Source of the DNA: Candidatus Methanomethylophilaceae archaeon
Lineage (GTDB): Archaea > Thermoplasmatota > Thermoplasmata > Methanomassiliicoccales > Methanomethylophilaceae
Direction of reading: 5' to 3'
DNA: 55,637 bases
Assembly (NCBI GenBank): GCA_017461225.1
Contig: JAFTYV010000001.1
Location: forward strand, 1 to 55,637
Shown: one piece after another, positions 3 through 40,922 of the stretch
Layout of the letters: every line of letters starts with the position of its first letter
Position numbering within the stretch: position 1 is the first letter of the stretch
Program-made: the position numbers and the translations under genes
Notes under the pieces: generated by a model
The model's database searches: none
What the model saw: only the letters and a program-made list of their open reading frames with translations
Told to the model about the DNA's origin: nothing

Positions 3-1097
3 CCCCGCGAGGTCGGTTTCATCATATGGGCACCGGACACCATGAAGACCAACGGAGACGACGTGGCGTACATCCTCTGGCTGATGGGCGTCAGACCCGT
101 CTGGTCCGCCGGTGGCGGACAGGTCATCGGCCTGGAGGCCATACCCGTGTCCGAGCTGGGGAGGCCGAGGATAGACGTGACGGTCCGCATCACCGGACTG
201 TTCAGGGACACCTTCCCCAACCTCATAGACCTCATCGACGACGCGGTCAAGCTGATCGCGGACCTGGACGAGTCCGACGAGGAGAACTACCTCGCCGCGA
301 ACCTCCGCCAGGACATCATCGAGGCCATGGCGAACGGCCTGACCGTGGACGAGGCGCGCAGGAGGAACTCCGTGCGCATCTTCGGATGCCCGCCCGGCGG
401 TTACGGTCCCGGAGTGAACCACGCCATCGAGACCGGCGAGTGGAAGACGGTCGAGGACCTGGCGGACATCTACATCACCTGGGGCAGCTACGCGTACGGC
501 CACGGGATCTCCGCGGAGAACATGAGGGAGGAGTTCGTCAGGAGGTTCTCCAAGGTGGGCGTCACCGTCAAGAACATGCCCGACAGGGAGATCGACCTGC
601 TGGACATAGACGACGTCTACGGATACCTCGGCGGCCTGAACTCCTTCATCAGGGCGTACGGCAACAAGGATGCCATCTCCGTCATGGGCGACGGCTCCAA
701 CCCCGACAAGGTCAAGCTGAGGGACACGAAGGACGAGCTGCAGTTCGTCTACAGGAGCAAGATCCTCAACCCCAAGTTCGTGGAGGGTCTGAAGCAGCAC
801 GGCTACAGGGGCGTGTCCGAGATCGCCAGCTTCACGGAGTTCACCTTCGGATGGGACGCCACCTCGGACATAGTCGACGACTGGGTGTACGAGAAGCTCG
901 TCGAGAGGTACCTCTTCGACGACGACACCAGGCAGTGGATGCAGGACGAGAACCCCCATGCCATGATGGACATGATGAACAGGCTCATGGAGGCCTACGA
1001 GAGGGGGATGTGGAACGCCAAGCCCGAGACCCTCGAGAGGATGAGGGAGATATACCTCGAGCTCGAGGAGAGGATCGAGGAGGTGAACGACAGATGA
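3..1097 (+). CDS. CobN/BchH-like metallochelatase large subunit, C-terminal part (5' end outside window)
   Basis: The reading frame is open from base 3, and the residues before the first ATG (position 42) already match the family, so this is the tail of a longer gene and not a 351-residue protein. The visible part has the CobN/BchH-type C-terminal pattern: an ILW and GVRPVW segment, GCPPGGYGPG near residue 115, a WGSYAYG segment, and a C-terminal region rich in WMQDENPHA-like sequence. Family members are ATP-dependent large subunits that bind a tetrapyrrole and insert Co2+ or Mg2+; methanogens carry several paralogues of unclear metal. The stop overlaps the next start (ATGA at 1094-1097), so the chelatase is translationally coupled to a nitrogenase-like reductase. 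This resembles the pairing of BchH with BchLNB in chlorophyll synthesis. The metal and tetrapyrrole are unknown. Confidence 0.82.
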   Translation, partial: PREVGFIIWAPDTMKTNGDDVAYILWLMGVRPVWSAGGGQVIGLEAIPVSELGRPRIDVTVRITGLFRDTFPNLIDLIDDAVKLIADLDESDEENYLAANLRQDIIEAMANGLTVDEARRRNSVRIFGCPPGGYGPGVNHAIETGEWKTVEDLADIYITWGSYAYGHGISAENMREEFVRRFSKVGVTVKNMPDREIDLLDIDDVYGYLGGLNSFIRAYGNKDAISVMGDGSNPDKVKLRDTKDELQFVYRSKILNPKFVEGLKQHGYRGVSEIASFTEFTFGWDATSDIVDDWVYEKLVERYLFDDDTRQWMQDENPHAMMDMMNRLMEAYERGMWNAKPETLERMREIYLELEERIEEVNDR

Positions 1098-3223
1098 GGT
1101 CCGGCGGTCCGTTCCAGCTGGCCGTGTACGGCAAGGGAGGGATCGGGAAGTCGACCATATCCGCCAACATCTCCTTCGGTCTCGCATCCCGCGGCCTGGA
1201 CGTCCTCCAGGTCGGATGCGACCCGAAGCACGACTCCACCAGGCTGCTCCTGGGCGGGGAGGCCCAGGACACCGTCCTGGACCTCATACGCTCCAGGGGG
1301 TCGGTCGGGTACGACGACATAGTCAGGACCGGTTCCAACGGCGTCCGCTGCGTGGAGGCCGGGGGACCCAGACCCGGGATCGGATGCGCCGGCAGGGGCG
1401 TCCTCACCACCTTCGAGACGCTGGACGAGCTCCACGTCGGGGACGACGCCGACGTCAAGGTCTACGACGTCCTGGGGGACGTGGTGTGCGGCGGGTTCGC
1501 CGTCCCCATGAGGGAGAGGTACGCCGACGCGGTCGTCATCGTCACCTCCGAGGAGTTCATGTCCGTGTACGCGGCCAACAACATCATGAGGGGGCTGCTG
1601 AACTTCGACACCGGCAGGCCGAGACTGCTCGGACTGGTCCACAACTCCCGCGGCAACGGGGACGACGGGCTGGTCAGGCGGTTCTCCGAGGCCACCAGGG
1701 TCCCCATCATCGCCACCATCCCGCGCTCGGACCTCTTCAGGGATGCCGAGTCCAGGGGGCACACCCTCCTCGAGCTGCATCCCGGATCCGGTCCCGCCGA
1801 CGCGCTGTCGGCCGTGGTCGACACCGTGGTGTCGCTCATGGACGGTGGCTCCGGCCTCCGCTACCCGTCCCCTCTGGACGACGGACAGCTCTCGGACCTC
1901 GTGTCCGGCGCACCCATCAGGGAGAGGGCGGAGGTGGAGGTCCTGGAGCAGTGCCCCGGATGCCTCTTCGACACGAAGAGGGTCGTCGGATCCTGCGCCA
2001 CCCACGGTGCGATGGCCGTCCTCAACAGGATAAAGGACGTCGCCGTCATCGTCCACGGACCCCGCAGCTGCGGGTTCATCATGTCGTACGCACAGAACAG
2101 GGAGTACTTCAACGGCAGGAACGCCAGGGTGTACCCGACCACGCCGTTCAGCGGCAACGTGCACACCACCAACATGGACGACTCCGATTCCATATTCGGC
2201 GGTGCCGCCGTCCTGGAGGCGAAGATCAGGGAGCTGGTCGCCGAGGGGCACCCCGCCGTGGCCGTCGTCACGTCGTGCGTGACGGGGATCATAGGCGACG
2301 ATTCGAAGGAGGTCGTCCGCCGCCTCAACGCCGAGTTCCCGCAGTGCGACATAATGTACGTGGAATCGGACGGTAGCATCACGGGCAACAAGTTCGGTGG
2401 GTACAACCAGGTCACCGACGCCCTGATGGACATCGTGGACGCAGACGTGGAACCCGTCCCGGGGACCGTCAACCTCGTCTGCGACACCTTCAAGAAGTCC
2501 AACAGACCGGACTACCGCAACAGGATACACGACGCCCTCGGCGTGTTCTCCCTGGGGATCAACGCCTCCATGGTCGACGTGTGCCGCTCCGAGGACATCC
2601 GCAACATAAAGCGCGGCATGTTCAACATCCGCCTATATGACAACGAGGAGACCAACCACATCACGGAATCCCTCGCCTCGAGGTTCGGGATGAGGACCCT
2701 GGAGAACCTCTTCCCCACCGGGACGGCCGAGACCGTCAGGTGGCTCGACGAGGTCGCCGGGATCCTGGACCTGGGTGCGGAGGCGGAGGCCGCGAAGGTC
2801 AGGATGGCGGATGAGAGGGAGTCGGCGCTAGCGACGTACGGCCACCACTTCGCCGGCAGACGCGCGGTCGTGTGCTGCCGCGACCCCACCAACCTGGACT
2901 GGATGTGCGAGCTCATGGGCGAACTGGGCGTGGATGTCACGGTCGCGTACCTCGACCCCGTGCTCGTCACGGAGGAGAGGGTGCACCACCAGAGCGAGAG
3001 GGAGGTCGTCCTCAACTCGTCCATGAAGGTGGTCAGGGAGACCTGCGGCAGGGAACGTCCCGACTTCGTCATCTCCGACTACCGCATCACCGACCTGCCC
3101 GTCCCGTGCATCCTCGTGGACAAGTCCAAACTCAACGTGTTCCGCTACGCCAACTCGATCAGGATGCTGTGGCTGCAGATGATGGCCCCGCCCACCGCCG
3201 GATGGACGGAGGTGGACGCATGA
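1094..3223 (+). CDS. NifH-NifD-like fusion protein (nitrogenase-superfamily reductase, copy 1)
   Basis: A 709-residue protein joining two nitrogenase-type components normally made separately. Residues 1 to about 275 are a NifH/BchL/CfbC-like ATPase: P-loop GKGGIGKST at 13-21, and the two cysteines that hold the inter-subunit [4Fe-4S] cluster, Cys98 (in GCAGRG) and Cys132 (in GDVVCGGFA). From about residue 285 a NifD/BchN-like domain follows, with Cys301 (GSCATHGA), Cys326 (HGPRSCGF) and Cys395 (TSCVTGIIGDD) at the places of the three cluster cysteines of NifD. I see no cysteine at the FeMo-cofactor site and no convincing His442 equivalent, so N2 fixation is unlikely. The start was chosen because the ATG at 1094 overlaps the CobN-like stop and begins directly before the P-loop. 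The stop overlaps the NifK-like start. The substrate is unknown; tetrapyrrole reduction is inferred from the chelatase neighbour. Confidence 0.88.
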   Translation: MRSGGPFQLAVYGKGGIGKSTISANISFGLASRGLDVLQVGCDPKHDSTRLLLGGEAQDTVLDLIRSRGSVGYDDIVRTGSNGVRCVEAGGPRPGIGCAGRGVLTTFETLDELHVGDDADVKVYDVLGDVVCGGFAVPMRERYADAVVIVTSEEFMSVYAANNIMRGLLNFDTGRPRLLGLVHNSRGNGDDGLVRRFSEATRVPIIATIPRSDLFRDAESRGHTLLELHPGSGPADALSAVVDTVVSLMDGGSGLRYPSPLDDGQLSDLVSGAPIRERAEVEVLEQCPGCLFDTKRVVGSCATHGAMAVLNRIKDVAVIVHGPRSCGFIMSYAQNREYFNGRNARVYPTTPFSGNVHTTNMDDSDSIFGGAAVLEAKIRELVAEGHPAVAVVTSCVTGIIGDDSKEVVRRLNAEFPQCDIMYVESDGSITGNKFGGYNQVTDALMDIVDADVEPVPGTVNLVCDTFKKSNRPDYRNRIHDALGVFSLGINASMVDVCRSEDIRNIKRGMFNIRLYDNEETNHITESLASRFGMRTLENLFPTGTAETVRWLDEVAGILDLGAEAEAAKVRMADERESALATYGHHFAGRRAVVCCRDPTNLDWMCELMGELGVDVTVAYLDPVLVTEERVHHQSEREVVLNSSMKVVRETCGRERPDFVISDYRITDLPVPCILVDKSKLNVFRYANSIRMLWLQMMAPPTAGWTEVDA

Positions 3224-4479
3224 TCCTCCCCGACGGCTTCACCGGATCCGTCTTGGCGGCGGAGAGCGTGGCGGACATGAGGGTCCTGCTGAACGGACCC
3301 GCCGGATGCCGCAACAGGTACATGGTCCTGGTCCGCCAGCTCTTCCCCCGCGGAGAGGACGACGAGAGGTTCGCCCTGCCGTACTTCAAGGGCCAGGCGC
3401 GCGTCCCCTGCACGTACATCGACGAGGACGACTTCATCAACGGGGGCGGCGGGAAGGTCGCCGACGCCCTGAGGGTCATCAAGTCGGTGTGCGACGACAC
3501 CGTCATGATCATCGACACCCCCGGATCCGCGCTCATCGGGGACGACCACGGCAAGGCCGTGTCCGATGCGGACATGGAGGGCAGGGCGTTCGCACTGGGC
3601 GGCACCCTGATATCCCTCGGGTTCGCCGAGAGCTACGACTCCACCCTGAGGTGCATCGTGGAGTTCATCCGCCCCGCGGAGCTGGAGACGGTGCCCCGCA
3701 CCGTCAACATAGTCGGATACCCGATGACCGACAACGACTGGAGGCACGGCCTCGCCCATCTCCGCGAACTCCTCGGGGCGATGGGGCTGACCGTGACCGC
3801 CGCCATAGGCGCGGGTGCGTCCACCGACGACATACGCGCATCCGTGGGCGCGGAGGCCAACGTGGTCGTGTACCCCGAGTACGCCCGCGAACTCACAGGG
3901 TACATGGAGTCCGAGTACGGTGTCAGGACCGTCGTGTCCCCCGCCGGGGCGCCCGTGGGGCTCCACGGCACGGAGGTGTGGATCCGCACCATCGCCGACG
4001 CACTGGGCGTCGACCCGTCCGGGGCGCTCGCCATGTGCTCCGCGGCACGCGGGGCGATCAGGGACGCGATCCTCAGCGACAGGTCCCGCATAAAGCAGCT
4101 CCAGGGGATGTCGTTCGGTGTGGACGGCGTACCGTCCCTGGCGTACCCGCTGACGGTGTGGCTGCACGACTACCTCGGGATGGTCCCCGCGTCCGTGATG
4201 CTGAACCCGGACGGCGACGGTACGTGCCGCGGGTCGCTGGAGGGGTACCTGTCCGACCTCGGGCTCGGATCGGTCGTGGGCGACCCCCTGCCGGACTACT
4301 GCGACGTCGTCCTGACCAACGGCCAGGACGCCATGCACCTCCAGGAGAACCGCAGGTGCGGGGTGGGGATAGACGTGGCGTTCCCATCGACGAGGGAGAT
4401 CGTGCTTCTCCCCAGACCGACCATCGGCATACCCGGTTCGCTCATGATCGTCGAGGAGATCCTCAACAGCATGTGGTGA
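3220..4479 (+). CDS. NifK/BchB-like partner subunit of nitrogenase-like reductase (copy 1)
   Basis: A 419-residue protein whose ATG overlaps the stop of the NifHD fusion (ATGA), implying stoichiometric synthesis. It begins ILPDGFTGSV, then GPAGC (Cys30) at the place of NifK Cys95, and later PGSALIGDDH, the NifK/NifD-type I-G-D-D element but without the third cluster cysteine. Only Cys30 is shared with the second copy at 23744-25018; Cys64 is not. Three cysteines from the D-like part plus one from this subunit would bind one [4Fe-4S] cluster between subunits, comparable to the BchN/BchB arrangement (three Cys plus one Asp), and would not suffice for a six-cysteine P-cluster. It is shorter than NifK (about 520 residues), like BchB-type minimal subunits. 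Its role as the redox and substrate-binding partner is inferred. Confidence 0.82.
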   Translation: MILPDGFTGSVLAAESVADMRVLLNGPAGCRNRYMVLVRQLFPRGEDDERFALPYFKGQARVPCTYIDEDDFINGGGGKVADALRVIKSVCDDTVMIIDTPGSALIGDDHGKAVSDADMEGRAFALGGTLISLGFAESYDSTLRCIVEFIRPAELETVPRTVNIVGYPMTDNDWRHGLAHLRELLGAMGLTVTAAIGAGASTDDIRASVGAEANVVVYPEYARELTGYMESEYGVRTVVSPAGAPVGLHGTEVWIRTIADALGVDPSGALAMCSAARGAIRDAILSDRSRIKQLQGMSFGVDGVPSLAYPLTVWLHDYLGMVPASVMLNPDGDGTCRGSLEGYLSDLGLGSVVGDPLPDYCDVVLTNGQDAMHLQENRRCGVGIDVAFPSTREIVLLPRPTIGIPGSLMIVEEILNSMW

Positions 4480-4587: not shown

Positions 4588-5499
4588 TCAGTCCGTGACA
4601 CCGCGTGCGGGTTCCTTCAGGACGTTGCGGACGATCGTGTCCCTCTCCATCCTGTCCACCACGCGGTTGTCGCTGGAGACGTAGACGTCGTCGTCCAAGG
4701 GCTTGATGTTGTCGTCGAACAGCGGGTCCAGCATGATGATGTGGGGTCTGCCGTGGCTCATGATGACATCGGACTCCACCCCGTACACGGTCTTGATGTT
4801 CTCCGCGGTGAGGACCTCCTCGGGGGTCCCCGCTGCGTACACCCCGCCGTCGTACAGCATGATCATGTGGTCGGAGTACTTCGCGGCGATGTTCAGGTCG
4901 TGGCTGATCATGATGACCAGGATCCCCTTCTCCTGGGACAGGTCCCTCATGATGCGGGTGACCTCCATCTGGTGCTTGATGTCCAGGTTGGACGTGGGCT
5001 CGTCGAGGAGCAGGACCTTCGGTTCCTGCACCAGTCCCCTGGCCAGCATGACCTTCTGGTGCTGTCCGGCGGACAGCTCGTCGAAGGACCTCATCGCCAG
5101 GTGCTCGATGTTGATCAGCCTGAGCGTCTCGTACACGACATCCAGGTCGTGGTCCAGGGACTTCCAGTTGCTGTGGGGGTGGCGTCCCATGAGGACGGTG
5201 TCCACGACGGACAGGGGGAACGCGTCGCTGGACGCGTAGGGCACGTAGCCGACCTTCTTCGCCAGCTCCTTCAGGGTGGTGGATGCCACGTCCTGGCCGT
5301 CGATGTAGACGACGCCCTTGGTGGGGGAGAGGATCTTGTTGATGCAGTGGATCAACGTGGACTTACCGACACCGTTCGGTCCGATGATGGAGAGCAGCTG
5401 GGGCCCGTTGACCGACAGGTTGATGTTCTTCAGGACAGGGTTGGCGGAGTATCCGAACTCCACACCCTCGATATCGATCCTTATGGTGCTCCCGCTCAT
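4588..5499 (-). CDS. FecE/BtuD-type ABC importer ATPase (second ATPase of importer A)
   Basis: A 303-residue cytoplasmic ATPase of the iron-complex/cobalamin importer family. Walker A is GPNGVGKST at 40-48, the signature is LSAGQHQK, Walker B is VLLLDEPTSNLD, and the switch is SHD. After the usual domain (about 250 residues) comes an acidic tail with a GRPHIIMLDP element of unknown role, shared with the upstream paralogue. It is the last gene of a five-gene leftward operon and its ATG overlaps the previous gene by 4 bases. It is clearly related to the neighbouring ATPase at 5496-6407, yet that gene is visibly lower in GC, so the two copies have different histories or different codon pressure. 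Having two ATPases with two permeases suggests an asymmetric importer; two alternative complexes are also possible. Confidence 0.9.
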   Translation of the reverse strand: MSGSTIRIDIEGVEFGYSANPVLKNINLSVNGPQLLSIIGPNGVGKSTLIHCINKILSPTKGVVYIDGQDVASTTLKELAKKVGYVPYASSDAFPLSVVDTVLMGRHPHSNWKSLDHDLDVVYETLRLINIEHLAMRSFDELSAGQHQKVMLARGLVQEPKVLLLDEPTSNLDIKHQMEVTRIMRDLSQEKGILVIMISHDLNIAAKYSDHMIMLYDGGVYAAGTPEEVLTAENIKTVYGVESDVIMSHGRPHIIMLDPLFDDNIKPLDDDVYVSSDNRVVDRMERDTIVRNVLKEPARGVTD

Positions 5500-6407
5500 C
5501 CCACGGCCACCTTCTCCACAACGTAGTACTCATGGTCGTCATCGTAATCCGTGTCATCATCGTCGATGAGTATCAGATGGGGGCGACCGCGGTCCATTAT
5601 GACGTCGGCTCCCACTTCGTAGACGTGCCGGATGTTGTCAGGGGTGATCACATCCTGTGGTTTCCCCAACGCGTATATCCCGCCACCATGCAGCATGATG
5701 ATGTTATCGGAGTACTTCGCTGCGATGTTGATGTCGTGGCTGATCATGATTACCAGCATGTTCTTCTGACGGGACAGACGTTTGAGCATACGGGTGATCT
5801 CCAACTGGAACCTCACATCGAGGTTCGACGTGGGTTCATCCAGGAAGAGGATGCGTGGCTCCTGTGCCAGCCCCCTCGCCAACATGACCTTCTGATGCTG
5901 TCCGGCGGACAGTTCGTTGAAGTTCCTCTCGGCCAGATCCTCGATGCCGATGAGCTGAAGCATCTCATGCACGATGCGAAGATCATCGTCGAGGGACCCC
6001 CATTTGCTGTGGGGATGCCTTCCCATCAACACCGTGTCAGTGACACTCAATGGGAAGTTATCTGTGGATGTGTATGGGACATAACCCATGACCTTTGCGA
6101 GATCCTTGATGGAGACATCCTGGACGTTCGTTCCGTTTATTCTCACACACCCGCCCGTGGGATCCAGGATCTTGTTCAGACAGTGGATAAATGTCGATTT
6201 ACCCACGCCGTTGGGACCGAGGATGGATACCAGCTGTGCCCCGTGTATGTTCAGAGATATGTCTGAAAGAACGTTCTTATCGGAGTCCGCACCCTTGTAT
6301 GAGAACGACAGCCCATCGATATCCACGTTTATCTCGGGATCGTCTCCGAGTAGTATCGCACTCTGTTCGGATTCCTTGCTTCTGATGGAAATCGATCTCA
6401 ATTCCAC
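5496..6407 (-). CDS. FecE/BtuD-type ABC importer ATPase (first ATPase of importer A)
   Basis: A 303-residue ATPase paralogous to the next gene. It has an N-terminal extension of about 30 residues, then Walker A GPNGVGKST, signature LSAGQHQK, Walker B ILFLDEPTSNLD, SHD switch and the same GRPHLILIDD tail element. The start is a GTG (minus strand, 6405-6407). It lies inside the end of the upstream permease gene (10-base overlap), which points to translational coupling. Base composition is visibly AT-richer than in the downstream ATPase and closer to the permeases. The family energises uptake of Fe-siderophores, haem or cobalamin; the actual substrate cannot be read here. Confidence 0.9.
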   Translation of the reverse strand: MELRSISIRSKESEQSAILLGDDPEINVDIDGLSFSYKGADSDKNVLSDISLNIHGAQLVSILGPNGVGKSTFIHCLNKILDPTGGCVRINGTNVQDVSIKDLAKVMGYVPYTSTDNFPLSVTDTVLMGRHPHSKWGSLDDDLRIVHEMLQLIGIEDLAERNFNELSAGQHQKVMLARGLAQEPRILFLDEPTSNLDVRFQLEITRMLKRLSRQKNMLVIMISHDINIAAKYSDNIIMLHGGGIYALGKPQDVITPDNIRHVYEVGADVIMDRGRPHLILIDDDDTDYDDDHEYYVVEKVAVG

Positions 6408-7459
6408 ACCTTCTTATTCTTTTTAATCAAAATGTAGAGGAACAGCGGACCCCCTACCATGGAACTGATCACCCCTACGGGCAATCCGTTGATACCGGAC
6501 ACCTTCGCCACGGTATCGGCTATGATCAGGAAGGCGGCACCGAAGGCCGCGGCTCCCGGCAACAGTAACTTGTTTTTCGAGCCCACGAACATCCTGGCGA
6601 TGTGCGGACCAACCAACCCTATGAAACCGATCGTTCCGGTGAAACTGACAACGGCGGCGGTCATCAGGGACACGATGATCAGACAGAACATCCTGAAGAA
6701 TGTCGTGTTTATTCCCAGGGTCTGCGCACACCTGTCCCCCGAGTACATTATATCCAGTTTCTTGTAGCATGCACACAGGACCGCACTGGTCGCCGTGACG
6801 AACACCACGAGGAACGGCAGGTTGTCCCATGTCACCTTCGACAGGGATCCGACCCTCCAATGGTACGCGGAGGCCATGGACTCCGACTCGGCGGTGACCA
6901 TCATGTACTGAGTGATCGAACTGAACACATACATGACGGCAATCCCTAGGAGGATTATGGCGGTCGGGGACAGCTTCTTGAACCTGGACACCACGGTGAT
7001 CAACGCCACCGGAATCAGGGAGAACACGAATGCGTTGCAGACGACAGCATAGTCCCCGGACAATGCGGGTATGATCGAGAAACCGCTGATCATACTCAAT
7101 ACGGCTCCGAGGAATGCTCCGGACGAGACCCCCATCGTGTACGGTTCGGCGAGGGGATTCTGCATGAGGTTCTGCATGACGACCCCTCCGATCGCCAGTC
7201 CGGCACCCACGAATGCCGCACCGATCGCACGGGGGAGGCGCACATCCCATACGTACAGGTCGTCCTTCGCGTTGACCACGTTTCCGGTCAGATGGTTGAT
7301 CAATGCATCGAATGCCTCCCCCATTGAGATCTTGTATGTACCGAATCCCAAAGATATGACCACGAACGATATCGCCACGATGAAGAACACTATGGCGAAG
7401 AAGGAACGCCTCTTGGCGATTGAATGGTAACGTTCAATGAAATCTACAAGTAAAGCCAT
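6398..7459 (-). CDS. FecCD/BtuC-type permease (second permease of importer A)
   Basis: A 353-residue multi-spanning membrane protein. The start chosen begins MALLVDFIERYHSIAKRR; the frame is open further upstream, but that sequence is not family-like and would lie inside the upstream gene. Family marks include ARLPR-like VRLPRAIGAAFVGAGLAIGG, QNLMQNPLAEPYTMGVSSGA and GTIGFIGLVGPHIAR, the loop that contacts the ATPase. About nine or ten helices are expected. The ATG shares one base with the preceding stop (TGATG). It is a distinct paralogue of the permease at 7459-8541, so the transmembrane pore may be a heterodimer, unlike the homodimeric BtuC2 pore. Confidence 0.92.
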   Translation of the reverse strand: MALLVDFIERYHSIAKRRSFFAIVFFIVAISFVVISLGFGTYKISMGEAFDALINHLTGNVVNAKDDLYVWDVRLPRAIGAAFVGAGLAIGGVVMQNLMQNPLAEPYTMGVSSGAFLGAVLSMISGFSIIPALSGDYAVVCNAFVFSLIPVALITVVSRFKKLSPTAIILLGIAVMYVFSSITQYMMVTAESESMASAYHWRVGSLSKVTWDNLPFLVVFVTATSAVLCACYKKLDIMYSGDRCAQTLGINTTFFRMFCLIIVSLMTAAVVSFTGTIGFIGLVGPHIARMFVGSKNKLLLPGAAAFGAAFLIIADTVAKVSGINGLPVGVISSMVGGPLFLYILIKKNKKVWN

Positions 7460-8541
7460 CAGTACACCGTCCCGTAGCCTTTCTTCTGCCACAGAATGAG
7501 GAGGAAGAAGATCGGACTGCCTATGATCGACATGACCACCCCGACTGGGACATCGGAGATGGTCATCGCAATGTAATCCGCCAGAACGAGGATGAAGGAC
7601 CCCACAGCCATGGATATGGGCACGACGAACTTGTTGTCGGATCCCACAAGGATCCTCACCAGATGGGGTGCGACCAGACCCAGGAACCCAATGGTTCCTG
7701 TGAAGCACACGATAGATGCGGTCATGATCGCCATCACAATCAAGCAGACGACCCTGAACTTCTCCACATCGAGACCCAGGGTCTTAGCATTGGCATCCCC
7801 CAGGGAAAGCACGTTGAGCTGACGTGTCAGCAACATGACGAAAGCACTACCGACAGCGGTCACCACGACCATCATGGGTATGCTGCTCCACACAATCGTG
7901 TCCAGAGTCCCGACCTGCCATATGTACGCGTTCTGGAGCGTATCGGCATCTGTTATGACCAGCAGGTATGTGACCATCGAACTGAAGAAGTAGGAGAGCG
8001 CGGTACCGACCAGGATGAGTGCCGCCGGACTCAGGGGCATCCTCTTAGAGATCAGGATGACGACCCCGACGGGGATCATCGCCCCCACGAATGCGTTCAC
8101 TATCATCCCGGACTGTCCGGATGTGGATGTTATCGTCAGACCGAGAACCAAAGCCACTATGGCTCCGAAACAGGCTCCGGATGAGATACCGGTACTGTAC
8201 GGATCGGCGAGGGGGTTGTTCATGAGCGCCTGCATCAGGGCACCGGCAGCTGCCAACGAGGCACCAGCCACGATGGCCGCCACGATACGGGGCATGACCG
8301 TGTTCCATATGAAACGGTCCGCCCACCATTCTGTTGTGCGTGGTTCGTACTCCACACCCATGATGTGGTCCCAGATTATACGGTACGCCTCCATCAGGGA
8401 GATGTTGTCGTAAGCGGAAACGGAGAACAAACCGACAACTATGATCACACCTATGACCGATACTACGAGGACGAGTAACTTCCTCATCGTGAGATGGTGA
8501 TACCTCTCCACAAGGGAGTCTGAATGGAGATTCTCGGACAT
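7459..8541 (-). CDS. FecCD/BtuC-type permease (first permease of importer A)
   Basis: A 360-residue integral membrane protein with the FecCD pattern: TVMPRIVAAIVAGASLAAAGALMQ, NNPLADPYSTGISSGA and GTIGFLGLVAPHLVR. The N-terminus (SLVERYHHLTMRK) resembles that of the second permease, which supports gene duplication. It follows the binding-protein gene after 39 bases that contain a GC-rich hairpin, and it runs directly into the second permease. Confidence 0.92.
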   Translation of the reverse strand: MSENLHSDSLVERYHHLTMRKLLVLVVSVIGVIIVVGLFSVSAYDNISLMEAYRIIWDHIMGVEYEPRTTEWWADRFIWNTVMPRIVAAIVAGASLAAAGALMQALMNNPLADPYSTGISSGACFGAIVALVLGLTITSTSGQSGMIVNAFVGAMIPVGVVILISKRMPLSPAALILVGTALSYFFSSMVTYLLVITDADTLQNAYIWQVGTLDTIVWSSIPMMVVVTAVGSAFVMLLTRQLNVLSLGDANAKTLGLDVEKFRVVCLIVMAIMTASIVCFTGTIGFLGLVAPHLVRILVGSDNKFVVPISMAVGSFILVLADYIAMTISDVPVGVVMSIIGSPIFFLLILWQKKGYGTVY

Positions 8542-8580: not shown

Positions 8581-9954
8581 TCAGGCACCCTTGGCGTTCA
8601 CATAGTCCTCGTATGTGATCGCCACACAGGCCTCGGACATCGTGTGTCCATCCAGTGTTATGCTGGACTCAGAGACGATATCGAAAACCTCCTGCAGGAT
8701 GTCTTCATCGACGAGATCGGGGTACATGATGCTGGCGACGAATGCCAGTTTTATGATACCCGGGTTGATGGCGTTGATGAGGACCCTCTGTTCGCGGTTG
8801 TCCAGGGTCTCATAGTAGCTGGCGTACTCCTCGTACTCTGCGATGATGGTGTTGCTATAGTCCCCGGTCTGGATGTCCAGGTTGTTGGAACACCAAATGA
8901 ACTCAGCATCATCGAAGTTGGACAGTGTCTCGGGACCCTCCATCTTGACGGAGGATGTTCCCTCATAGAGGGCTGCGAACTCATCGTTGACGATGTAGTA
9001 GGGCATACCTCCGACGTAAGAGGGCATGGTGTTGAACGTGGAGTCGTTCTGACAAACGTAGCAACCCATCGTCTCACAGATGTAGGTCTTCTGATCATCC
9101 TTGTCCAGACCGGAAAGCGCATCCTCCACCAGTGCGAACGCCCTGATACTCTCAGACGCGTAGTTGTATCCCTGGTCGTCATCGCAGAGGAATCCGATGA
9201 GGAGTGCTGCATTGACATCTCCGATCGGGTCAGCGACTGCGAGACGAATCTCGGGGATGCCGGCTGCTGCTAGGTCGTCTCTGTACACGGAGCTCTTGCT
9301 GAGTGCTGTGACACTGTGGTCGACGAAGAATGCGTCCACACCCTTTCCGGTGCTCTCGATGAGGGCTGCGTCAAGGCTGATGAACTGCTCCCATCCAGCG
9401 GTGGTCATCTGGCGGGAGATCTCGATTGCGACAGCATCCGAGTTGAAGAGCTCGGAGTTCATCTCGGGGTAGGATGTCTTCTTGGACATGTATCCGGCGC
9501 AGTGATCTACGCCGCCTGCGTTGATGAAGACCCCGGTCATGTTGGATCCGTAGGGAACCGCGTTCTTGACGGGGAACTCCACTGCCTTCACGACATCGTT
9601 TCCGTTCTCATCCAGGCAGATGACCTGTACGGTGCAGTCCTGACCCTTGATGATCTTGTTCACAAGGTCCTTGTCCTTGGAATCCACAGCACCGTTCTTG
9701 TCGGCATCTGCAAGAGGGTAGTCTCCCGCTGTTGCCTTTCCATCCACGATATCCTGGATAATCTCCAGATCCTTGTCGTCGATGACGAGGTCCTCGTTGG
9801 CGTTACCGTACACGTCCAGCCTGAAACTGTACTGGCCGTACTCGGCATCGCCTTTCTTATCATCATCACCGTTCAAAACCAGAATGGCAGCAGCAGCCAC
9901 TATGATGATGGCCACCACTCCTATGGCGATGATCTGATTCTTGTTCAAATCCAT
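8581..9954 (-). CDS. Membrane-anchored FecB/BtuF-like binding protein with dockerin-like domain
   Basis: A 457-residue extracytoplasmic protein, first gene of importer A. Residues 8-28 form one hydrophobic helix with no lipobox, the archaeal style of anchoring. Residues 48-104 look like a type I dockerin: two calcium-loop and helix units, the second with DADKNGAVD (83-91), each followed by an LxxxxxIxxG-like helix. The remaining 340 residues resemble a strongly diverged FecB/BtuF fold (AVPYGSNMTGVFINAGGVD, then a GKGVDAFFVDHS segment). Dockerins normally dock onto cohesins; a dockerin in a solute-binding protein could tether it to a surface scaffold or act only as a calcium-stabilised spacer. 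The substrate is unknown. Two regulon operators lie 91 and 136 bases upstream of the start codon. Confidence 0.8.
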   Translation of the reverse strand: MDLNKNQIIAIGVVAIIIVAAAAILVLNGDDDKKGDAEYGQYSFRLDVYGNANEDLVIDDKDLEIIQDIVDGKATAGDYPLADADKNGAVDSKDKDLVNKIIKGQDCTVQVICLDENGNDVVKAVEFPVKNAVPYGSNMTGVFINAGGVDHCAGYMSKKTSYPEMNSELFNSDAVAIEISRQMTTAGWEQFISLDAALIESTGKGVDAFFVDHSVTALSKSSVYRDDLAAAGIPEIRLAVADPIGDVNAALLIGFLCDDDQGYNYASESIRAFALVEDALSGLDKDDQKTYICETMGCYVCQNDSTFNTMPSYVGGMPYYIVNDEFAALYEGTSSVKMEGPETLSNFDDAEFIWCSNNLDIQTGDYSNTIIAEYEEYASYYETLDNREQRVLINAINPGIIKLAFVASIMYPDLVDEDILQEVFDIVSESSITLDGHTMSEACVAITYEDYVNAKGA

Positions 9955-10300: not shown

Positions 10301-10316
10301 CGGGGATCACTCCCCG
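10301..10316 (-). terminator. Hairpin spanning the end of the importer B ATPase gene
   Basis: CGGGGA / TCCCCG stem with a 4-nt loop. It overlaps the stop codon of the leftward gene at 10307 and is a candidate terminator. Confidence 0.4.
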
Positions 10317-11092
10317 TGGTCCCTCTCCACAAGTTTGACGTCCAGTCCGAACCTCGGGTCCTGGGATATCTCGGTTATAATCTTGAAAATCCTGCGGTAG
10401 TTCTCCGCGGTGGCGACCAGCTCCGTCTCACCGATGTCCCTGATCTCACCCTTCTCCATGAACACGATCTTGTCACAGTAGCGGGAGGCCAGGATGATGT
10501 CGTGCGTGACGATCAGGATCAGGATGTTCTTCTCGCGGGAGAGCCTCCTGACCAGCTCCAGCAGGTCGAACTGGTGGTTGATGTCGAGATGGAGCGTCGG
10601 TTCGTCCAGCAGGAGGATCTCCGGTTCCTGGGCGAGCGCCTGGGCGATGAAGACCCTCCTGCGCTCCCCTCCGCTGAGCTCGTTGATCCTGCGGTCCCTG
10701 AAGTCCAGGATCCCCGCATCGGCCATCGCCTGGGTGACGATGTCCACATCGTGGTCGGACTCCTCCGACACGAACGTCTGGTGGGCGTACCTGCCCATCA
10801 TGACCGTCTCGAACACCGTGAACGGGAACGTCACGTTGTTGGTCTGCGTCACGAATGCCATCTTGCGGGCTATCGCCTTCTTGGACATCTCGGAGGTGTC
10901 CTCCCCGTCCAGCACGACGTTTCCCGACGTGGGCTTGTTGGAGCCGTTTATGCACCTCAGGAGCGTGGTCTTGCCGCATCCGTTCTGACCGAGGATGCCG
11001 ACCACCTCCCCCCTGTCCGCTCCGAAGGAGACTCCCTTGACGACCTCCTTGGAACCGTATGAGTAGCGTACGTTGTTGACTGTCAGATCCAT
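10307..11092 (-). CDS. FecE/BtuD-type ABC importer ATPase (importer B)
   Basis: A 261-residue ATPase of standard family length. Walker A GQNGCGKTT is at 35-43, followed by a TFPFTVFETVMMGRY segment typical of FecE/FhuC proteins, signature LSGGERRR, Walker B ILLLDEPTLHLD and switch THD. It is the last gene of a three-gene leftward operon (binding protein, permease, ATPase), 4 bases after the permease stop. It is more canonical than the importer A ATPases, whose signatures read LSAGQ. Confidence 0.93.
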   Translation of the reverse strand: MDLTVNNVRYSYGSKEVVKGVSFGADRGEVVGILGQNGCGKTTLLRCINGSNKPTSGNVVLDGEDTSEMSKKAIARKMAFVTQTNNVTFPFTVFETVMMGRYAHQTFVSEESDHDVDIVTQAMADAGILDFRDRRINELSGGERRRVFIAQALAQEPEILLLDEPTLHLDINHQFDLLELVRRLSREKNILILIVTHDIILASRYCDKIVFMEKGEIRDIGETELVATAENYRRIFKIITEISQDPRFGLDVKLVERDHGE

Positions 11093-11096
11093 GGTA

Positions 11097-12167
11097 TCAC
11101 TCCCAGACGTCCCTGCTCCTCTTCCTCATGACGTACACGAAGAACGGCGCACCCAGGAGGGATGTGAGCACACCCACGGGCAGTGCGGTCTCGAACGCCA
11201 TCCTGGAGATGGTGTCCATCACGAGCATGAACGCACCTCCACCGAGTATGCACAGGGGCATCAGCAGCTTGTGGTCCGACCCCGCCAGCATCCTGAATAT
11301 GTGCGGGACTATCAGTCCGACGAATCCGATCACACCGGATATCGCCACGGAGCCCCCCACGACGAGCGACGTGGAGACGATCAGCACGATCCTTATCGTC
11401 TTGACGTCCACACCCAGGTTCGCGGCCTGAGTCTCCCCGGCGGAGATCAGGTTGAGCTCGCGCCTGCAGAGCATCATCATGATCAGACCTATTGAGATCG
11501 GTATCGCCGCTGTGAAGAACGACGTCCAACCGCAACCGTTGAAGCTGCCCATGGTCCAGTACACTATGCTGGCGAGGACATCGTCCTCCACCACGTACTG
11601 CATGAGCGAGACCATGCCGTTGAAGAACGCACCCACGGCCACACCCGCCAGGAGCAGGGTCACGGGGGAGACCCCGTACTTCGTCCTGCCGAGGACGTAG
11701 ACCAGCACCATGGTGAGGCAGCAGAACAGGAACGCCATTATCGGGACGGCGAAACCGCCGAACACGCTCCCCACGCCGAACGCTATGGCCAGCGACGCAC
11801 CGAACGCCGCGCCGTTGGATATACCGAGGACGGAGGGCGATGCCATCGGGTTCTTGAAGAGACTCTGCATCACGAGTCCCGCGCAGGACAGCGCCGCACC
11901 CACGAGGACGCAGCACAGGATCCTGGGGATCCTCGTCTCGAACAGTATGTAGTTGTCCGTGTCGTCGTAGTGGGTCCCCGTGAGCATCCCCACGATCTCC
12001 CCGAACGACAGCGGGTACTTGCCGATCATCATCGTCGAGATGACGATCGCGATCAGGACTAGTGCGGTGCCCGTTACGATCAACGCGGCCTTCCTCTTGT
12101 TCCTGCGGTGGTAATCACGCATCCCATCGTTGCTTACGTCTTCCATAACGGGCACCTTCGTTTTCAT
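11097..12167 (-). CDS. FecCD/BtuC-type permease (importer B)
   Basis: A 356-residue integral membrane protein. Family marks are TRIPRILCCVLVGAALSCAG, KNPMASPSVLGISNGAAFGA and ISGVIGFVGLIVPHIFR. Residues 28-50 form the first helix after a charged cytoplasmic N-terminus rich in Arg and Lys. The start shares one base with the preceding binding-protein stop. One permease gene and one ATPase gene imply a homodimeric core, in contrast to importer A. Confidence 0.93.
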   Translation of the reverse strand: MKTKVPVMEDVSNDGMRDYHRRNKRKAALIVTGTALVLIAIVISTMMIGKYPLSFGEIVGMLTGTHYDDTDNYILFETRIPRILCCVLVGAALSCAGLVMQSLFKNPMASPSVLGISNGAAFGASLAIAFGVGSVFGGFAVPIMAFLFCCLTMVLVYVLGRTKYGVSPVTLLLAGVAVGAFFNGMVSLMQYVVEDDVLASIVYWTMGSFNGCGWTSFFTAAIPISIGLIMMMLCRRELNLISAGETQAANLGVDVKTIRIVLIVSTSLVVGGSVAISGVIGFVGLIVPHIFRMLAGSDHKLLMPLCILGGGAFMLVMDTISRMAFETALPVGVLTSLLGAPFFVYVMRKRSRDVWE

Positions 12168-14597: not shown

Positions 14598-14694
14598 CTG
14601 TCTCACTTCCGACGGGGTACCCATACCCCCTTACGGTATATCGAACACCTCCGTGTATTTCAACGTTGGCTGTTGCATCCGAATACGTCCGACA

Positions 14695-23743: not shown

Positions 23744-25018
23744 TCAGTTGACCCTCGCACCGTGTAGCATCTCGTCCAGGATGTAGAGGGAGCCCTGCAC
23801 CCCGTATATCGGACGTGGGATCACGTCGTCGAGTCCCATGGACGAGTGTCCGATGGGGACCCCGACCCTGCATCCGCCGTTGACGGACATCGTCACCGCA
23901 GTCAGACCCTCTGAGAACACCGCCCCGCAACCGTGGACAGGGGGCCTCCCGAACGATTCCGCGTAGTCGATGGACTCCAGGAACGACCTCACGGCGTCCA
24001 CCTCGTCCGGATCCGCACCCGGATCCACGTCCACCGCCACCGGTGCCATGCACAGGTAGGTGTACAGCCACTCTGTGAGCGGCCTGACCACGGATGCTAT
24101 CCCCGCGGCGGAGAACGTCATGCCCTTGATGCGAAGGGCGTTGTACTTCATCCCCACGAACTTCTCCAGGACCCTGTCGCGTGCACGGCGGACCCTGGCC
24201 AGTGCGGGTGCGGGATCGCATCCGGCGGCCTCCGCCACCGTGCGGATCCAGCCCTCCGTCGCATCGAAGCCCACCGGGGCGCCGTGCGGCGAACGGATGA
24301 TGCGGACCCCGTTGTCCGCATAGTAGTCCACGAGACCCTGGCAGGCCTCCGGGCACACGACGACGGCGAACTCGGCGTTCAGGGACCCCCTGAGCTCCGC
24401 GACCGTCGCCCCCGCACCGGGGACCGCGACGACCTCCAGACCCATGGACTCCACGAGTCCGCACAGCTCCTCGGTCGCCGCCCTCCAGTCCTTGTCCATG
24501 ATGGTGAGTCCCAGGAGGACCACCGTCCCGGGGCGCGGCGAGTCCCTCACCGGGTCCAGGCCCTCCAGGACGGTCCTCAGCATGTGGCCGTAGCACATGG
24601 TGACGGGCATGGAGACGAGGGACTCGTCCATGTACACCACTTTCGACTCCAGACCGAGGTCGCGTATGGCCTTCTCGTGGTTGTCACCGATCAGCCCGGC
24701 ACCCGGGGAGTTGATGATCACCGCGAACTCCGGCCTGCGGGACTCCACGATCGGCAGTCCCTCGCGGACCTTGTACGCGGCACCGTTGATGAAATCGTAC
24801 TCGTCGAGGTACGTGGCAGGCACCCTCGGGTACCCGTAGAAGTACGGTGAGAAGAAGTCCAGGTCGTCGTCGGGGTCGTCCCTCGGATAGACCGCTGTGG
24901 AGTGCACCATGTGTCTCACCCTGCATCCTCCGGGTCCGTGGAGGAACACCATCGCGTCGGAGATGCTCTCCACGGCCATTATCGCCCCGTTGAAGCCATC
25001 GGGCAGGACCCTGGTCAT
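23744..25018 (-). CDS. NifK/BchB-like partner subunit of nitrogenase-like reductase (copy 2)
   Basis: A 424-residue protein with an ATGA overlap with the NifHD fusion before it. It is a clear paralogue of 3220-4479: VLPDGFNGAI at the start, HGPGGC with Cys32, YLDEYDFINGA, and SPGAGLIGDNHEKA without a cysteine at the NifK Cys153 place. Cys32 is the only cluster-type cysteine shared by both copies, and Cys64 of copy 1 is Ala here. The C-terminal GVQGSLYILDEML matches copy 1 GIPGSLMIVEEIL, a motif that may be specific to this subgroup. With the D-like cysteines it would complete one [4Fe-4S] site. Confidence 0.82.
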   Translation of the reverse strand: MTRVLPDGFNGAIMAVESISDAMVFLHGPGGCRVRHMVHSTAVYPRDDPDDDLDFFSPYFYGYPRVPATYLDEYDFINGAAYKVREGLPIVESRRPEFAVIINSPGAGLIGDNHEKAIRDLGLESKVVYMDESLVSMPVTMCYGHMLRTVLEGLDPVRDSPRPGTVVLLGLTIMDKDWRAATEELCGLVESMGLEVVAVPGAGATVAELRGSLNAEFAVVVCPEACQGLVDYYADNGVRIIRSPHGAPVGFDATEGWIRTVAEAAGCDPAPALARVRRARDRVLEKFVGMKYNALRIKGMTFSAAGIASVVRPLTEWLYTYLCMAPVAVDVDPGADPDEVDAVRSFLESIDYAESFGRPPVHGCGAVFSEGLTAVTMSVNGGCRVGVPIGHSSMGLDDVIPRPIYGVQGSLYILDEMLHGARVN

Positions 25019-27168
25019 CTTATCACCCTCCCCTCCTTCCAGCCCTCGTCGTTCGGGAGGCGCATTATGTTCTCCACGTACTCGGCGTACTCGAGGACGG
25101 ACCTCACGCCCACGCCGACCTTCCCGAAGCGCGCCATGCGGCACCTCCCGGACAGGGGTCTGGCTATGTCGCTGATCAGCAGGTCGGGGTCCAGGGAGGA
25201 CATGTCCTCCAGAAGGTCCTCGACCTCGTAGTCCGTGGTGATCATTTCCATGTGGCGGGAGTAGATGCGGGAACCGTTCTTGCGGGGGCTCGAGACGAAA
25301 CCGACCCTCACGATGTCGGCACCCAGGTCCTGAAGCAGGTCTATCAGCCAGTCCACGTTGTGCGTGAGCTTGTTCATCACTATCACCCTCTTCCCGGCGA
25401 ACCTGTGGCGGTGGTCGACCACGAACGCGTCGTACTCCGCACAGACATTCCCGGCCTCCTCCTCGGCCTCGGCCTCCATCCCGAGTTCGGACCCCACGGC
25501 GCGGAGCCACTCGGTGTAGTCATGCAGACCCACCGGCATGGGGACGGGGAACGGCCTGCGACCCGTCCTGGATTCTATTATGGATGCGAGTTCGCGGGAG
25601 TTGGCGTTGTCGGTGACCATCATGTCCATGGACGCCCTGCAGTAGTTCCTCACGGTGTCCGAGGTGGTCTCGTCCAGGAACCTGCAGTTCTCCCTCAGTC
25701 CGAAACGGGCGAGCATGCGCTCCAGCTCCCTGGCGTGCTCCCGGGACTGGAGGTCGAAGAAGGACGTGCCTATCAGGTTCACGTAACCCGGTTCCACCGG
25801 CACATCGGGATCGATCATGTCCGCGATCGCACCGGCGGCCATCATGAACCCGTCCGTGTACTCGCCGCATATGTCCCCGTCGGCAGGGACCAGGTGGAAG
25901 CGCACATCGGGATGCAGTCCCGATACCCTTGTCAGGAGGGCCTCACAGTCGTCCCCGATTATCCCTGGCATGCAGGTGGTGACCACGGCTATGTCATGGA
26001 AACCCTCGGCCACCGTGGCCTCCAGCGCCTCCTCCAGGAACCCGATGCCCCCGAATATGGAGGCGCTGTCGTCCATCATGGTGCAGCGGATGTTGCACTG
26101 CGGGTCCCTGCGGTACACCCCGCGGGCGTACAGGTCCAGGATGGCCTTCCCGCGTGTGGTCGCCATCAGGTACTGGCAGCTGCGGGGCCCATGGATCACC
26201 ACGGCGACATCGTTCATCTTCAGGAACGCCGCCGTGGCACCGTAGGCCGCACATGAGCTCATGACGCGGTGGTCCCGGATGGACCCCCTGACCCCGCACC
26301 CGTGGCAACCCGATCGTGCGACGGGGACCCCGCCGGACGATGGACGGATCTCCCTCCCGGCCGCCAGGTCGGACATCTGGTCGTCGTCCAGGGGGGTCGG
26401 GGCGACCGCGGCGACCCTACCCTCGGACACGTCGAGGATGCGCTGGGCTATCGCATCGAGCGATGCAGCGACCTCCGAATCTGGGTGGAGCTCCCTGACG
26501 GTGTGGCCTGCGGCCTCCGCCTCCGCGAAGAGCCTGTCGCGGGGTATGACCGATATGACCTCGGTCCCGGTGGCCGCCGCGAACCTGCGGACGGTCTCCT
26601 CCTCCCCCTTGACACCGCGGGAGTTGAGGATTATGCCTATGAGACGGGGGGAACCGGTGTCGAAGTTCTCCAGACCCTTCATGATGTTGTTGGCGGCGTA
26701 CATCGACATGAACTCGCCGGACGTGACCAGGATTATGCCGTCCGCGTACTCGCCCCTCAGGGGGACGGCGAAACCGCCGCAGACCACGTCGCCCAGGACG
26801 TCGTAGACCCTGACGTCGGTGTCCAGGTCGTCGGCACCCAGCTTCCTGAGCGTGTCGAAGGTCGTGAGGATGCCGCGACCGGCGCACCCTATGCCGGGCT
26901 CCGGTCCGCCGGCCTCCGCGCAGAGGACCCCGGCGGTGCCCTCGACGATGATGTCCTCCAACCTCCTCTGGGGGAGCGGTACGGAACGCACGTACTCCAG
27001 AACGGTCTTCTGCGCCTCGCCTCCGAGGAGGAGCCTCGTGGAGTCGTGCTTGGGGTCGCATCCGACCTGCAGCACCTTGAGACCCCTGGAGGCCAACGCC
27101 ACGGAGATGTTCGCAGACATCGTGGATTTCCCTATTCCGCCCTTGCCGTAGATCGCCACCTGATACAT
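25015..27168 (-). CDS. NifH-NifD-like fusion protein (nitrogenase-superfamily reductase, copy 2)
   Basis: A 717-residue fusion with the same order as copy 1. The NifH-like part (1 to about 275) has P-loop GKGGIGKST at 8-16 and cluster cysteines Cys95 and Cys130. The NifD-like part has Cys306 (SSCAAYGA), Cys331 (HGPRSCQY) and Cys399 (TTCMPGIIGDD). The linker between the two includes PLDDDQMSDL, close to PLDDGQLSDL in copy 1, so the fusion predates the duplication. The NifH-like halves are more alike than the D-like halves, whose C-terminal thirds differ strongly; the copies probably share the electron-donor chemistry and differ in substrate. No CobN-like gene adjoins this copy. A perfect-arm regulon operator lies 45 bases upstream of the start codon. 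Confidence 0.88.
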   Translation of the reverse strand: MYQVAIYGKGGIGKSTMSANISVALASRGLKVLQVGCDPKHDSTRLLLGGEAQKTVLEYVRSVPLPQRRLEDIIVEGTAGVLCAEAGGPEPGIGCAGRGILTTFDTLRKLGADDLDTDVRVYDVLGDVVCGGFAVPLRGEYADGIILVTSGEFMSMYAANNIMKGLENFDTGSPRLIGIILNSRGVKGEEETVRRFAAATGTEVISVIPRDRLFAEAEAAGHTVRELHPDSEVAASLDAIAQRILDVSEGRVAAVAPTPLDDDQMSDLAAGREIRPSSGGVPVARSGCHGCGVRGSIRDHRVMSSCAAYGATAAFLKMNDVAVVIHGPRSCQYLMATTRGKAILDLYARGVYRRDPQCNIRCTMMDDSASIFGGIGFLEEALEATVAEGFHDIAVVTTCMPGIIGDDCEALLTRVSGLHPDVRFHLVPADGDICGEYTDGFMMAAGAIADMIDPDVPVEPGYVNLIGTSFFDLQSREHARELERMLARFGLRENCRFLDETTSDTVRNYCRASMDMMVTDNANSRELASIIESRTGRRPFPVPMPVGLHDYTEWLRAVGSELGMEAEAEEEAGNVCAEYDAFVVDHRHRFAGKRVIVMNKLTHNVDWLIDLLQDLGADIVRVGFVSSPRKNGSRIYSRHMEMITTDYEVEDLLEDMSSLDPDLLISDIARPLSGRCRMARFGKVGVGVRSVLEYAEYVENIMRLPNDEGWKEGRVIR

Positions 27169-27317: not shown

Positions 27318-28124
27318 TCAGATCAGGTCGTGGCCTCTCCTGACCCTCTTCGGCAGTACGAACAGCTCGCCGTCGTCATCGAAACCCACGGATGCGCTGA
27401 CGTCGTAGACCTTCTCTATCAGCTCCGGCGTGATGACCTCCTTCGGCTTCCCGATACCGAGGATCTCGCCCTTCCTCATGATGATGCAGAGGTCGCAGTA
27501 CCTGGCCATCAGCGAGATGTCGTGCTCCGCCACGAGGATCGTCATGTCCTTCTTGACCATGGCGTTGAGGTACTCCATCACGTCGAGCTTGTACTTCATG
27601 TCCAGGTGCGAGGTGGGCTCGTCCACCAGCATCAGCCTGGGCTCCTGCACGTAGGCCTTCGCGATCAGGACGCGCTGCTGCTCACCGGATGAGAGCATGT
27701 TCAGCTGCCTGTCCTGCAGATGGGCGACACCGAACTTCTCCATCGCGTCGAACACGACCGACTCGTCGTTCTCGGTCTCCCACCACACGTTCTTCAGGAA
27801 CGGGTAGCGGCCCATCATGACCGTCTCGTAGACGGTGAGGCCGAAGCTGTTCCTGAGCTCCGCGGGGACGTTGGCGACCTTCCTGGCCACCTCGGCGGGA
27901 CTCTTGTCCAGGACCGACTCCCCGTCGATGAGGATCTCCCCGGAGGACGGGTCGTGCATCCTGTTGATGCACTTCATCATCGTGGACTTCCCGCAACCGT
28001 TCGGTCCTATCAGGCCTACCAGCATGCCGGGCGGTATCGAGTAGGACACGCCGCGCACGGCGTGGTAGCCGTCATCGTAGTACTTCTGGAGGTCCCTGAC
28101 CTCCAGCAACGGGACATCATCCAT
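27318..28124 (-). CDS. FecE/BtuD-type ABC importer ATPase (importer C)
   Basis: A 268-residue ATPase. The start was set at MDDVPLLEVRDL, 8 bases inside the end of the permease gene; the frame is open further upstream but that part is not family-like. Walker A is GPNGCGKST, the signature LSSGEQQR departs from LSGGQ, Walker B is LMLVDEPTSHLD, and the switch is EHD. It is the last gene of a four-gene leftward operon. Its ATPase lineage differs from those of importers A and B. Confidence 0.92.
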   Translation of the reverse strand: MDDVPLLEVRDLQKYYDDGYHAVRGVSYSIPPGMLVGLIGPNGCGKSTMMKCINRMHDPSSGEILIDGESVLDKSPAEVARKVANVPAELRNSFGLTVYETVMMGRYPFLKNVWWETENDESVVFDAMEKFGVAHLQDRQLNMLSSGEQQRVLIAKAYVQEPRLMLVDEPTSHLDMKYKLDVMEYLNAMVKKDMTILVAEHDISLMARYCDLCIIMRKGEILGIGKPKEVITPELIEKVYDVSASVGFDDDGELFVLPKRVRRGHDLI

Positions 28125-39502: not shown

Positions 39503-39528
39503 TGGGTTTTGAGAACCGGACGGGGTCT

Positions 39529-39542
39529 CCCCCGCCCGGGGG
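39529..39542. terminator. Hairpin between fic and cbiC
   Basis: CCCCCG / CGGGGG with a 2-nt loop in the 42-bp convergent gap; it may end both transcripts. Confidence 0.4.
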
Positions 39543-39544
39543 CG

Positions 39545-40918: not shown

Positions 40919-40922
40919 CGGA

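Follow-up and report, generated by a model that had tools for sequence, protein, structure and literature searches.

A NifH–NifD fusion protein of archaea and bacteria with a probable role in corrinoid salvage

What does a nitrogenase-type reductase act on when its ATPase is joined to its catalytic subunit? The substrates established for enzymes of this type are N2, precursors of chlorophyll and of F430, sulfur compounds, and a few others. The window analyzed here, a stretch of 55,637 nucleotides at the start of contig JAFTYV010000001.1 from Candidatus Methanomethylophilaceae archaeon (GCA_017461225.1), encodes a protein (HD) in which a NifH-like Fe-protein ATPase (H) and a NifD/BchN-like domain (D) share one frame, followed by a separate partner subunit (K). 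Judging from sequence, we propose, at a probability of about 0.6, that HD-K is an ATP-driven, tethered reductase resembling dark-operative protochlorophyllide oxidoreductase (DPOR) and chlorophyllide oxidoreductase (COR), and that it acts on a corrinoid during uptake, salvage, or remodelling. The proposal follows from the combination of DPOR/COR-type cluster ligands, corrinoid genes beside HD-K, and cobalamin riboswitches.

The fusion is not an artefact. The first-pass annotation had described complete NifH and NifD domains in one uninterrupted frame, coupled to K by an ATGA motif, and both features hold: no stop or frameshift separates H from D, and HD and K overlap at 3220-3223. All four strong NifH matches in the genome lie in frames of approximately 700 codons or more, two in the window and one each on contigs 24 and 48, and every NifH protein of this organism is fused. 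Because HD has three further fused paralogues in its own genome and fused homologues in independent genomes, a frameshift, chimera, or assembly error is ruled out.

A search of genomes recovered approximately 60 fused sequences from Methanomassiliicoccales, other methanogens, Clostridia, Treponema, and Myxococcota. NifH-type genes occur in 119 of 147 Methanomassiliicoccales genomes, many of which carry both fused genes of 690-840 codons and free NifH genes of 250-290 codons, the latter presumably CfbC. In a scan of named genomes, HD was followed by an overlapping or adjacent K in archaea (Methanomethylophilaceae, Methanoregula, and Methanosarcina sp. KYL-1) and in bacteria (Clostridium tetanomorphum DSM 4474, Lachnospiraceae, Sporobacter, Peptococcaceae, ‘Ndiopella’, Oscillospiraceae, and Treponema). 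The Myxococcota frame (locus L075, 2465-5881) is far longer, at 1139 codons, and its match to the H profile spans residues 65-646; it may contain a duplicated H domain or an insertion. Two otherwise complete genomes have an HD frame broken within the D domain (L148, 499+237 codons; L166, 545+171 codons); these may be pseudogenes or frameshifts.

The first-pass annotation knew of no described system of this architecture, but the fusion has been reported before. A 2024 survey, ‘Fusion/fission protein family identification in Archaea’, lists as cluster 443 a NifH-NifD/E fusion that seems to be the one described here, present in Methanomassiliicoccales and split in other methanogens (PMC11237513), and a 2014 paper labels one protein ‘fused nifH/nifE’ (PMC4153887). 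In the relevant passages, neither paper assigns a function, analyzes the ligands, includes bacterial members, or draws a connection to corrinoids.

The fusion arose once. In a tree of D and K sequences, the fused D domains group together (support 1.0) in a clade whose sole other member is a fragment in L158, and their K partners form a separate clade, also with support of 1.0. The sister group of the fused D domains (support 0.90) comprises unfused H-D-K sets from Methanocorpusculum, Methanoregula, other Methanomicrobiales, and one Bacillota. The tree of H sequences is consistent with this at lower support (0.60), with one contig-edge H fragment falling inside the fused clade. The trees contained no BchY or BchZ sequence.

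HD-K belongs to the nitrogenase superfamily, having a P-loop ATPase with two cluster cysteines and a PF00148 domain in both D and K. It was annotated as lying outside the characterized nitrogenase, DPOR, COR, and CfbCD families, and profile scores bear this out, since no curated NCBIfam model accepts either protein. HD scores best with CfbC (282.5, cut-off 402; 3e-84 for the H domain), followed by NifH (270.9, cut-off 394); BchL gave 197.8 (cut-off 345.15) and BchX 165.2 (cut-off 331.2). The D domain scores best with NifD and NifE profiles, far below their cut-offs. K reaches 67.5 with BchB (cut-off 490.35), and the remaining scores were 26.7 for BchY (cut-off 425.15), 43.3 for BchZ (cut-off 529), and 33.2 for CfbD (cut-off 268.4).

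All five cysteines singled out in the first-pass annotation, C98 and C132 of the H domain and C301, C326, and C395 of the D domain, are present and invariant in 58 of 58 aligned fused proteins, and D5 and C30 are invariant at cluster positions in the K alignment. When aligned with Bradyrhizobium and Nostoc NifD/K/E/N, Nostoc ChlN/B, and archaeal CfbD, C30 of K coincides with the second NifK cysteine and with the ChlB aspartate (Asp36 of BchB), D5 coincides with the first NifK cysteine, and the position of the third is not a cysteine. K thus retains one of the three NifK P-cluster cysteines, and the resulting pattern of three cysteines from D and one from K excludes a normal P-cluster with its six cysteines. 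The alignment, inspected by eye, also has no conserved Cys or His in the D domain where the FeMo-cofactor ligands (NifD Cys275 and His442) lie, and these ligands are apparently missing.

Predicted structures agree with this placement. The AlphaFold2 model of K (pTM 0.88) matches BchB, AnfK, and NifK structures in Foldseek (E ~1e-18, TM ~0.75), and so the earlier description of K as NifK/BchB-like holds for its fold, but not for its P-cluster cysteines. In the HD model, the H domain is confident and matches Fe proteins, the D domain is reasonable, and the linker is disordered. With a pTM of 0.58, the orientation of H relative to D is uncertain, and we did not use the arrangement. The ‘fixed tether’ first imagined between the domains is not supported: the segment from L261 to C301 varies from 35 to 120 residues across the fused family. 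Since it is long, variable, and predicted to be disordered here, the tethered ATPase may still dock and leave.

These features place HD-K among known systems as follows. Like DPOR (BchL/BchN/BchB or ChlL/N/B), which acts on a tetrapyrrole, it pairs an Fe protein with a two-subunit catalytic component, draws three cluster ligands from the D side and one from the partner, and has a K fold that matches BchB. It differs in that BchL is a separate protein, the partner ligand is Cys30 rather than Asp36, no chlorophyll pathway genes accompany HD-K, and its scores fall far below the DPOR cut-offs. COR (BchX/BchY/BchZ), another ATP-driven tetrapyrrole reductase, is described in the literature as having all-cysteine 3+1 cluster ligation, to which the three-plus-one cysteines of HD-K may correspond; unlike HD-K, COR keeps BchX as a separate protein, and HD-K scores weakly with BchY and BchZ. 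CfbC/CfbD is archaeal, has a tetrapyrrole substrate, and provides the best score of the H domain; however, CfbC is not joined to another domain, CfbD consists of one short subunit, and the pair lies in a separate gene cluster, present in most of the same relatives, whose neighborhood differs from those of HD-K.

If the ligands point to a tetrapyrrole reductase, the gene neighborhoods suggest which tetrapyrrole. In the window, the HD gene also overlaps the CobN-like gene upstream of it by ATGA (1094-1097), a junction absent from the first-pass annotation. With overlaps on both sides, HD-K is translationally coupled to the CobN-like gene, and the unit is CobN-HD-K. The best NCBIfam match of the CobN-like protein is cobN, below its cut-off; the protein belongs to the same superfamily (PF02514) as the HmuS/CobN/ChlH class I chelatases and dechelatases. 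The unit faces two FecCD/BtuC-type importers, a layout also seen in L066, and the closest NCBIfam models to the second importer are a corrinoid ABC ATPase and a vitamin B12 permease, both below their cut-offs.

We surveyed 59 HD loci and, for comparison, 20 control CfbCD loci from the same order. Recurring HD neighbors are BtuD/FecE/HmuV-type ATPases, FecCD/BtuC permeases, PF01497 binding proteins, an ABC-2 exporter, CobN, ChlI/ChlD-type AAA proteins, and CbiZ. In tests that were uncorrected and treat loci that are not independent, FecCD was found in 34/59 HD loci versus 5/20 controls (p=0.019) and ABC-2 permease in 18/59 versus 0/20 (p=0.004). CbiZ (PF01955), ChlI/ChlD-type proteins, CobN, and BtuFCD-type importers lie beside HD-K in L169, L174, L176, and L071, the first three, which have the fullest clusters, in the order binding protein, FecCD, ATPase, CbiZ, ChlI, ChlD, HD, K, with CobN close by. 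In L151, a CobA adenosyltransferase gene (PF02572, 5.8e-59) ends a few bases upstream of HD-K, and in L170 an aminotransferase, CbiB, CbiZ, and CobS are its neighbors.

The unfused relatives tell largely the same story. Separate H, D, and K genes accompany CobN in Dialister, Phascolarctobacterium, Sporomusa, and a Negativicutes metagenome-assembled genome, and these loci variously carry ChlI/ChlD, CbiZ, and BtuFCD-type importers; in Sporomusa (L105), the genes downstream of H-D-K encode FecCD, an ATPase, and CobA. Because unfused sets occur in the same kind of neighborhood, the fusion itself is probably not essential to function. Rfam cobalamin riboswitches are present in eight of 14 bacterial H-D-K loci, four of the eight fused (L068, L073, L074, and L077) and four of the six unfused (L084, L088, L105, and L117). 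In L074, L088, and L117, the riboswitch lies 123-166 bases before the H or HD gene. By comparison, none was detected in seven Firmicutes-type loci, 141 kb in all, that carry NifH/D/K genes of other kinds. In L073, a PF01261 TIM-barrel protein with a homologue in L105 sits between the riboswitch and HD; we take it to resemble CbiR, a cobamide-remodelling enzyme, and its presence would fit cobamide remodelling.

How might such an enzyme work? Two H domains would dimerize, bind MgATP, and share one [4Fe-4S] cluster ligated by C98 and C132 from both. The dimer would pass single electrons to one [4Fe-4S] cluster at the D/K interface, held by C301, C326, and C395 of D and C30 of K. This cluster would pass them on to a tetrapyrrole lodged between D and K, which we infer to be a corrinoid handled in uptake, salvage, or remodelling. 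Because each D carries a single H, the two catalytic halves of an (HD)2K2 particle would have to share one Fe-protein dimer where two are usual, and the dimer would be expected to dock with each half in turn or with a half of another particle.

The exact reaction is a guess. The one we tentatively favor is ATP-driven one-electron reduction of a cob(II)- to a cob(I)-corrinoid, which would feed adenosylation by CobA, cobalt insertion or removal by CobN-ChlI-ChlD, or both. We favor it because CobA requires Co(I) (PMC7242693), because CobA is a direct neighbor in two loci, and because the anaerobic corrinoid reductase is unassigned in most producers; cobR is absent from most verified cobamide producers and was excluded for that reason (PMC6461909). 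HD-K and its unfused H-D-K relatives together might then be that missing ATP-driven enzyme, supplying cob(I) for both adenosylation and CobN-ChlI-ChlD metal exchange, a broader suggestion that we offer with some doubt. A literature search that left out most subscription papers found no description of a nitrogenase-like corrinoid enzyme.

Several observations weigh against a corrinoid role. Neither CobN (11/59 HD loci versus 0/20, p=0.057) nor CbiZ (9/59 versus 0/20, p=0.1) is significantly enriched alone, and in the flanks retrieved for approximately 15 of 51 archaeal HD loci, importer, CobN, and CbiZ genes are all absent. Siderophores and heme are also transported by importers of the FecCD type. 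All riboswitch evidence is bacterial, with none detected in the window or in four archaeal loci; cobalamin riboswitches are not known to be common in archaea. Finally, the HD of the CobN-HD-K unit (HD1) is divergent, with 42% identity to its best match. A single genome can hold up to eight NifH-type matches, so paralogues may differ in substrate. Same-genome HD-K paralogues below 45% identity likewise suggest different substrates. Local duplication is seen in L154, with two divergent HD-K pairs 5 kb apart, and in L162 and L181, with two HD genes each; L150 has two CobN genes.

Table 1. Features of the window around the two HD-K gene pairs
Feature	Position	Strand	Evidence and remarks
CobN-like class I chelatase large subunit, C-terminal part	3..1097	+	PF02514 5.6e-133; contig begins inside gene
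HD fusion (HD1; NifH-like Fe-protein ATPase + NifD/BchN-like domain), 709 aa	1094..3223	+	PF00142 and PF00148; no internal stop
NifH domain of HD, residues 8-271	1115..1906	+	PF00142 1.1e-81; P-loop, [4Fe-4S] cysteines C98, C132
Inter-domain linker of HD	1907..1993	+	pLDDT below 50 at residues 279-299
NifD/BchN-like domain of HD, residues 301-664	1994..3085	+	PF00148 3.2e-51; cysteines C301, C326, C395
K partner of HD, 419 aa, BchB/NifK-like fold	3220..4479	+	PF00148 9e-38; D5, C30
Two ABC ATPase genes, FecE/BtuD/HmuV type	4588-5499, 5496-6407	-	PF00005, sequence clustering
Two FecCD/BtuC-type permease genes	6398..8541	-	7462-8541 PF01032 1.6e-77; frame 6398-7708 by FecCD cluster
Secreted, probable importer substrate-binding protein	8581..9954	-	SBP_b cluster membership
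Second importer: ABC ATPase and BtuC/FecCD permease	10307..12167	-	Profile matches
K partner of HD2	23744..25018	-	ATGA overlap with HD2
Second HD fusion (HD2), 717 aa, 42% identical to HD1	25015..27168	-	Profile and identity search
Importer upstream of HD2: binding protein 30975-32330, FecCD permease, ABC ATPase 27318-28172	27318..32330	-	Profiles, clustering; PF01497 4.4e-29 (binding protein), PF00005 4.6e-32 (ATPase)

The remaining window genes fill in this picture (Table 1). The probable binding protein of the first importer has no Pfam or NCBIfam match of its own, and a member of its SBP_b cluster in L163 matches PF01497 weakly. The window proteins at 12167-13309 and 13464-14624 have no family match. 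Approximately 12 kb from HD2, at 39500-46700, lie corrin-ring synthesis genes (TP_methylases), including CbiJ fused to TP_methylase and a methyltransferase domain. A protein at 34787-35509 (cluster c10), whose L168 homologue has no Pfam match, and an FMN-reductase-like protein at 35510-36091 recur beside the HD2 type (L164, L167, L168, L172, and L183). Elsewhere in the genome, a CbiK-type cobalt chelatase gene (L013 10065-10934, contig 48) adjoins the fourth HD fusion and runs in the opposite direction; H-D-K in L105 and L117 also has CbiK nearby. This 1.5-Mb genome has five or six CobN-like genes or fragments (contigs 5, 39, 40, 55, and 60), several of them near FecCD importers or ChlI/ChlD-type genes, and these chelatase copies would seem to exceed the apparent need of corrinoid synthesis.

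Within the corrinoid proposal, and not exclusive of it, HD-K might instead reduce the corrin macrocycle or drive reductive metal exchange with CobN-ChlI-ChlD, possibilities we consider nearly as likely as reduction of Co(II) to Co(I). Reduction of ring double bonds is common to its nearest relatives in mechanism (DPOR, COR, and CfbCD), and metal exchange would suit both the co-occurrence of CobN and ChlI/ChlD with HD-K and the translational coupling of HD to CobN in the window. The pairing with CobA in L151 and L105, however, better suits a supplier of Co(I), and we know of no reduced corrin product, which counts against ring reduction.

The main rival substrate class is heme. In a pathway for porphyrin or heme salvage, the importer would bring in heme or a chlorin, the CobN-like protein would remove the metal, and HD-K would reduce the heme iron or the porphyrin ring. 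HmuS, of the CobN family, de-chelates heme in gut Bacteroides in a manner dependent on NADH and reduced heme, and it has archaeal homologues without a known role (PMC12583661). FecCD importers are compatible with such a pathway, DPOR and COR both act on porphyrin rings, and the HD locus L073 adjoins what appear, from sequence, to be heme precursor genes. Nevertheless, the cobalamin riboswitches and the CbiZ, CobA, CbiB, and CobS genes beside HD-K point to corrinoids, and no heme-specific uptake gene was recognized beside HD-K. We consider heme salvage unlikely.

Far less likely still is a role for HD-K in coenzyme F430 synthesis, standing in for CfbCD in this lineage. The idea has some appeal for the organism itself, which has McrA and in which all NifH proteins are fused and no CfbC, CfbD, or CfbE was found; CfbD and CfbE were also not found in G094, a genome that is 99% complete. 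Yet canonical CfbC/D/E persists in most relatives that carry HD, complete genomes of the genus among them, and HD-K is therefore no general stand-in for CfbCD. HD-K also occurs in non-methanogenic bacteria under B12 riboswitches, and other Mcr-bearing genomes have neither CfbCD nor HD. As a general function, F430 synthesis is thus rejected. Neither CfbD nor CfbE was found in a set of McrA-bearing genomes (our own, G000, and G089, G094, G048, G049, G110, G130, G138, G139, G141, G142, and G145), several of which are 95-99% complete. Either the assemblies have gaps at one locus, or these organisms are true F430 auxotrophs that take up the cofactor; that the absence is concordant among related genomes favors real loss. 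A nitrogenase or a NifEN-like cofactor scaffold can be rejected on ligands, K lacking the P-cluster cysteine set and D apparently the FeMo-cofactor ligands, with no nif maturation genes seen near HD-K, despite the best D-domain scores being with NifD and NifE.

The fusion, then, was already catalogued, and what we add is its probable link to corrinoid salvage. If correct, this link would add a substrate class to the nitrogenase-type reductases through a widespread member active in B12 salvage. It would also provide a candidate for the corrinoid reductase of anaerobes and a use for the archaeal CobN genes. Whatever its substrate, the natural tether between H and D offers an experimental system for a central question about nitrogenase, namely whether the Fe protein needs to be released in each cycle of electron transfer.

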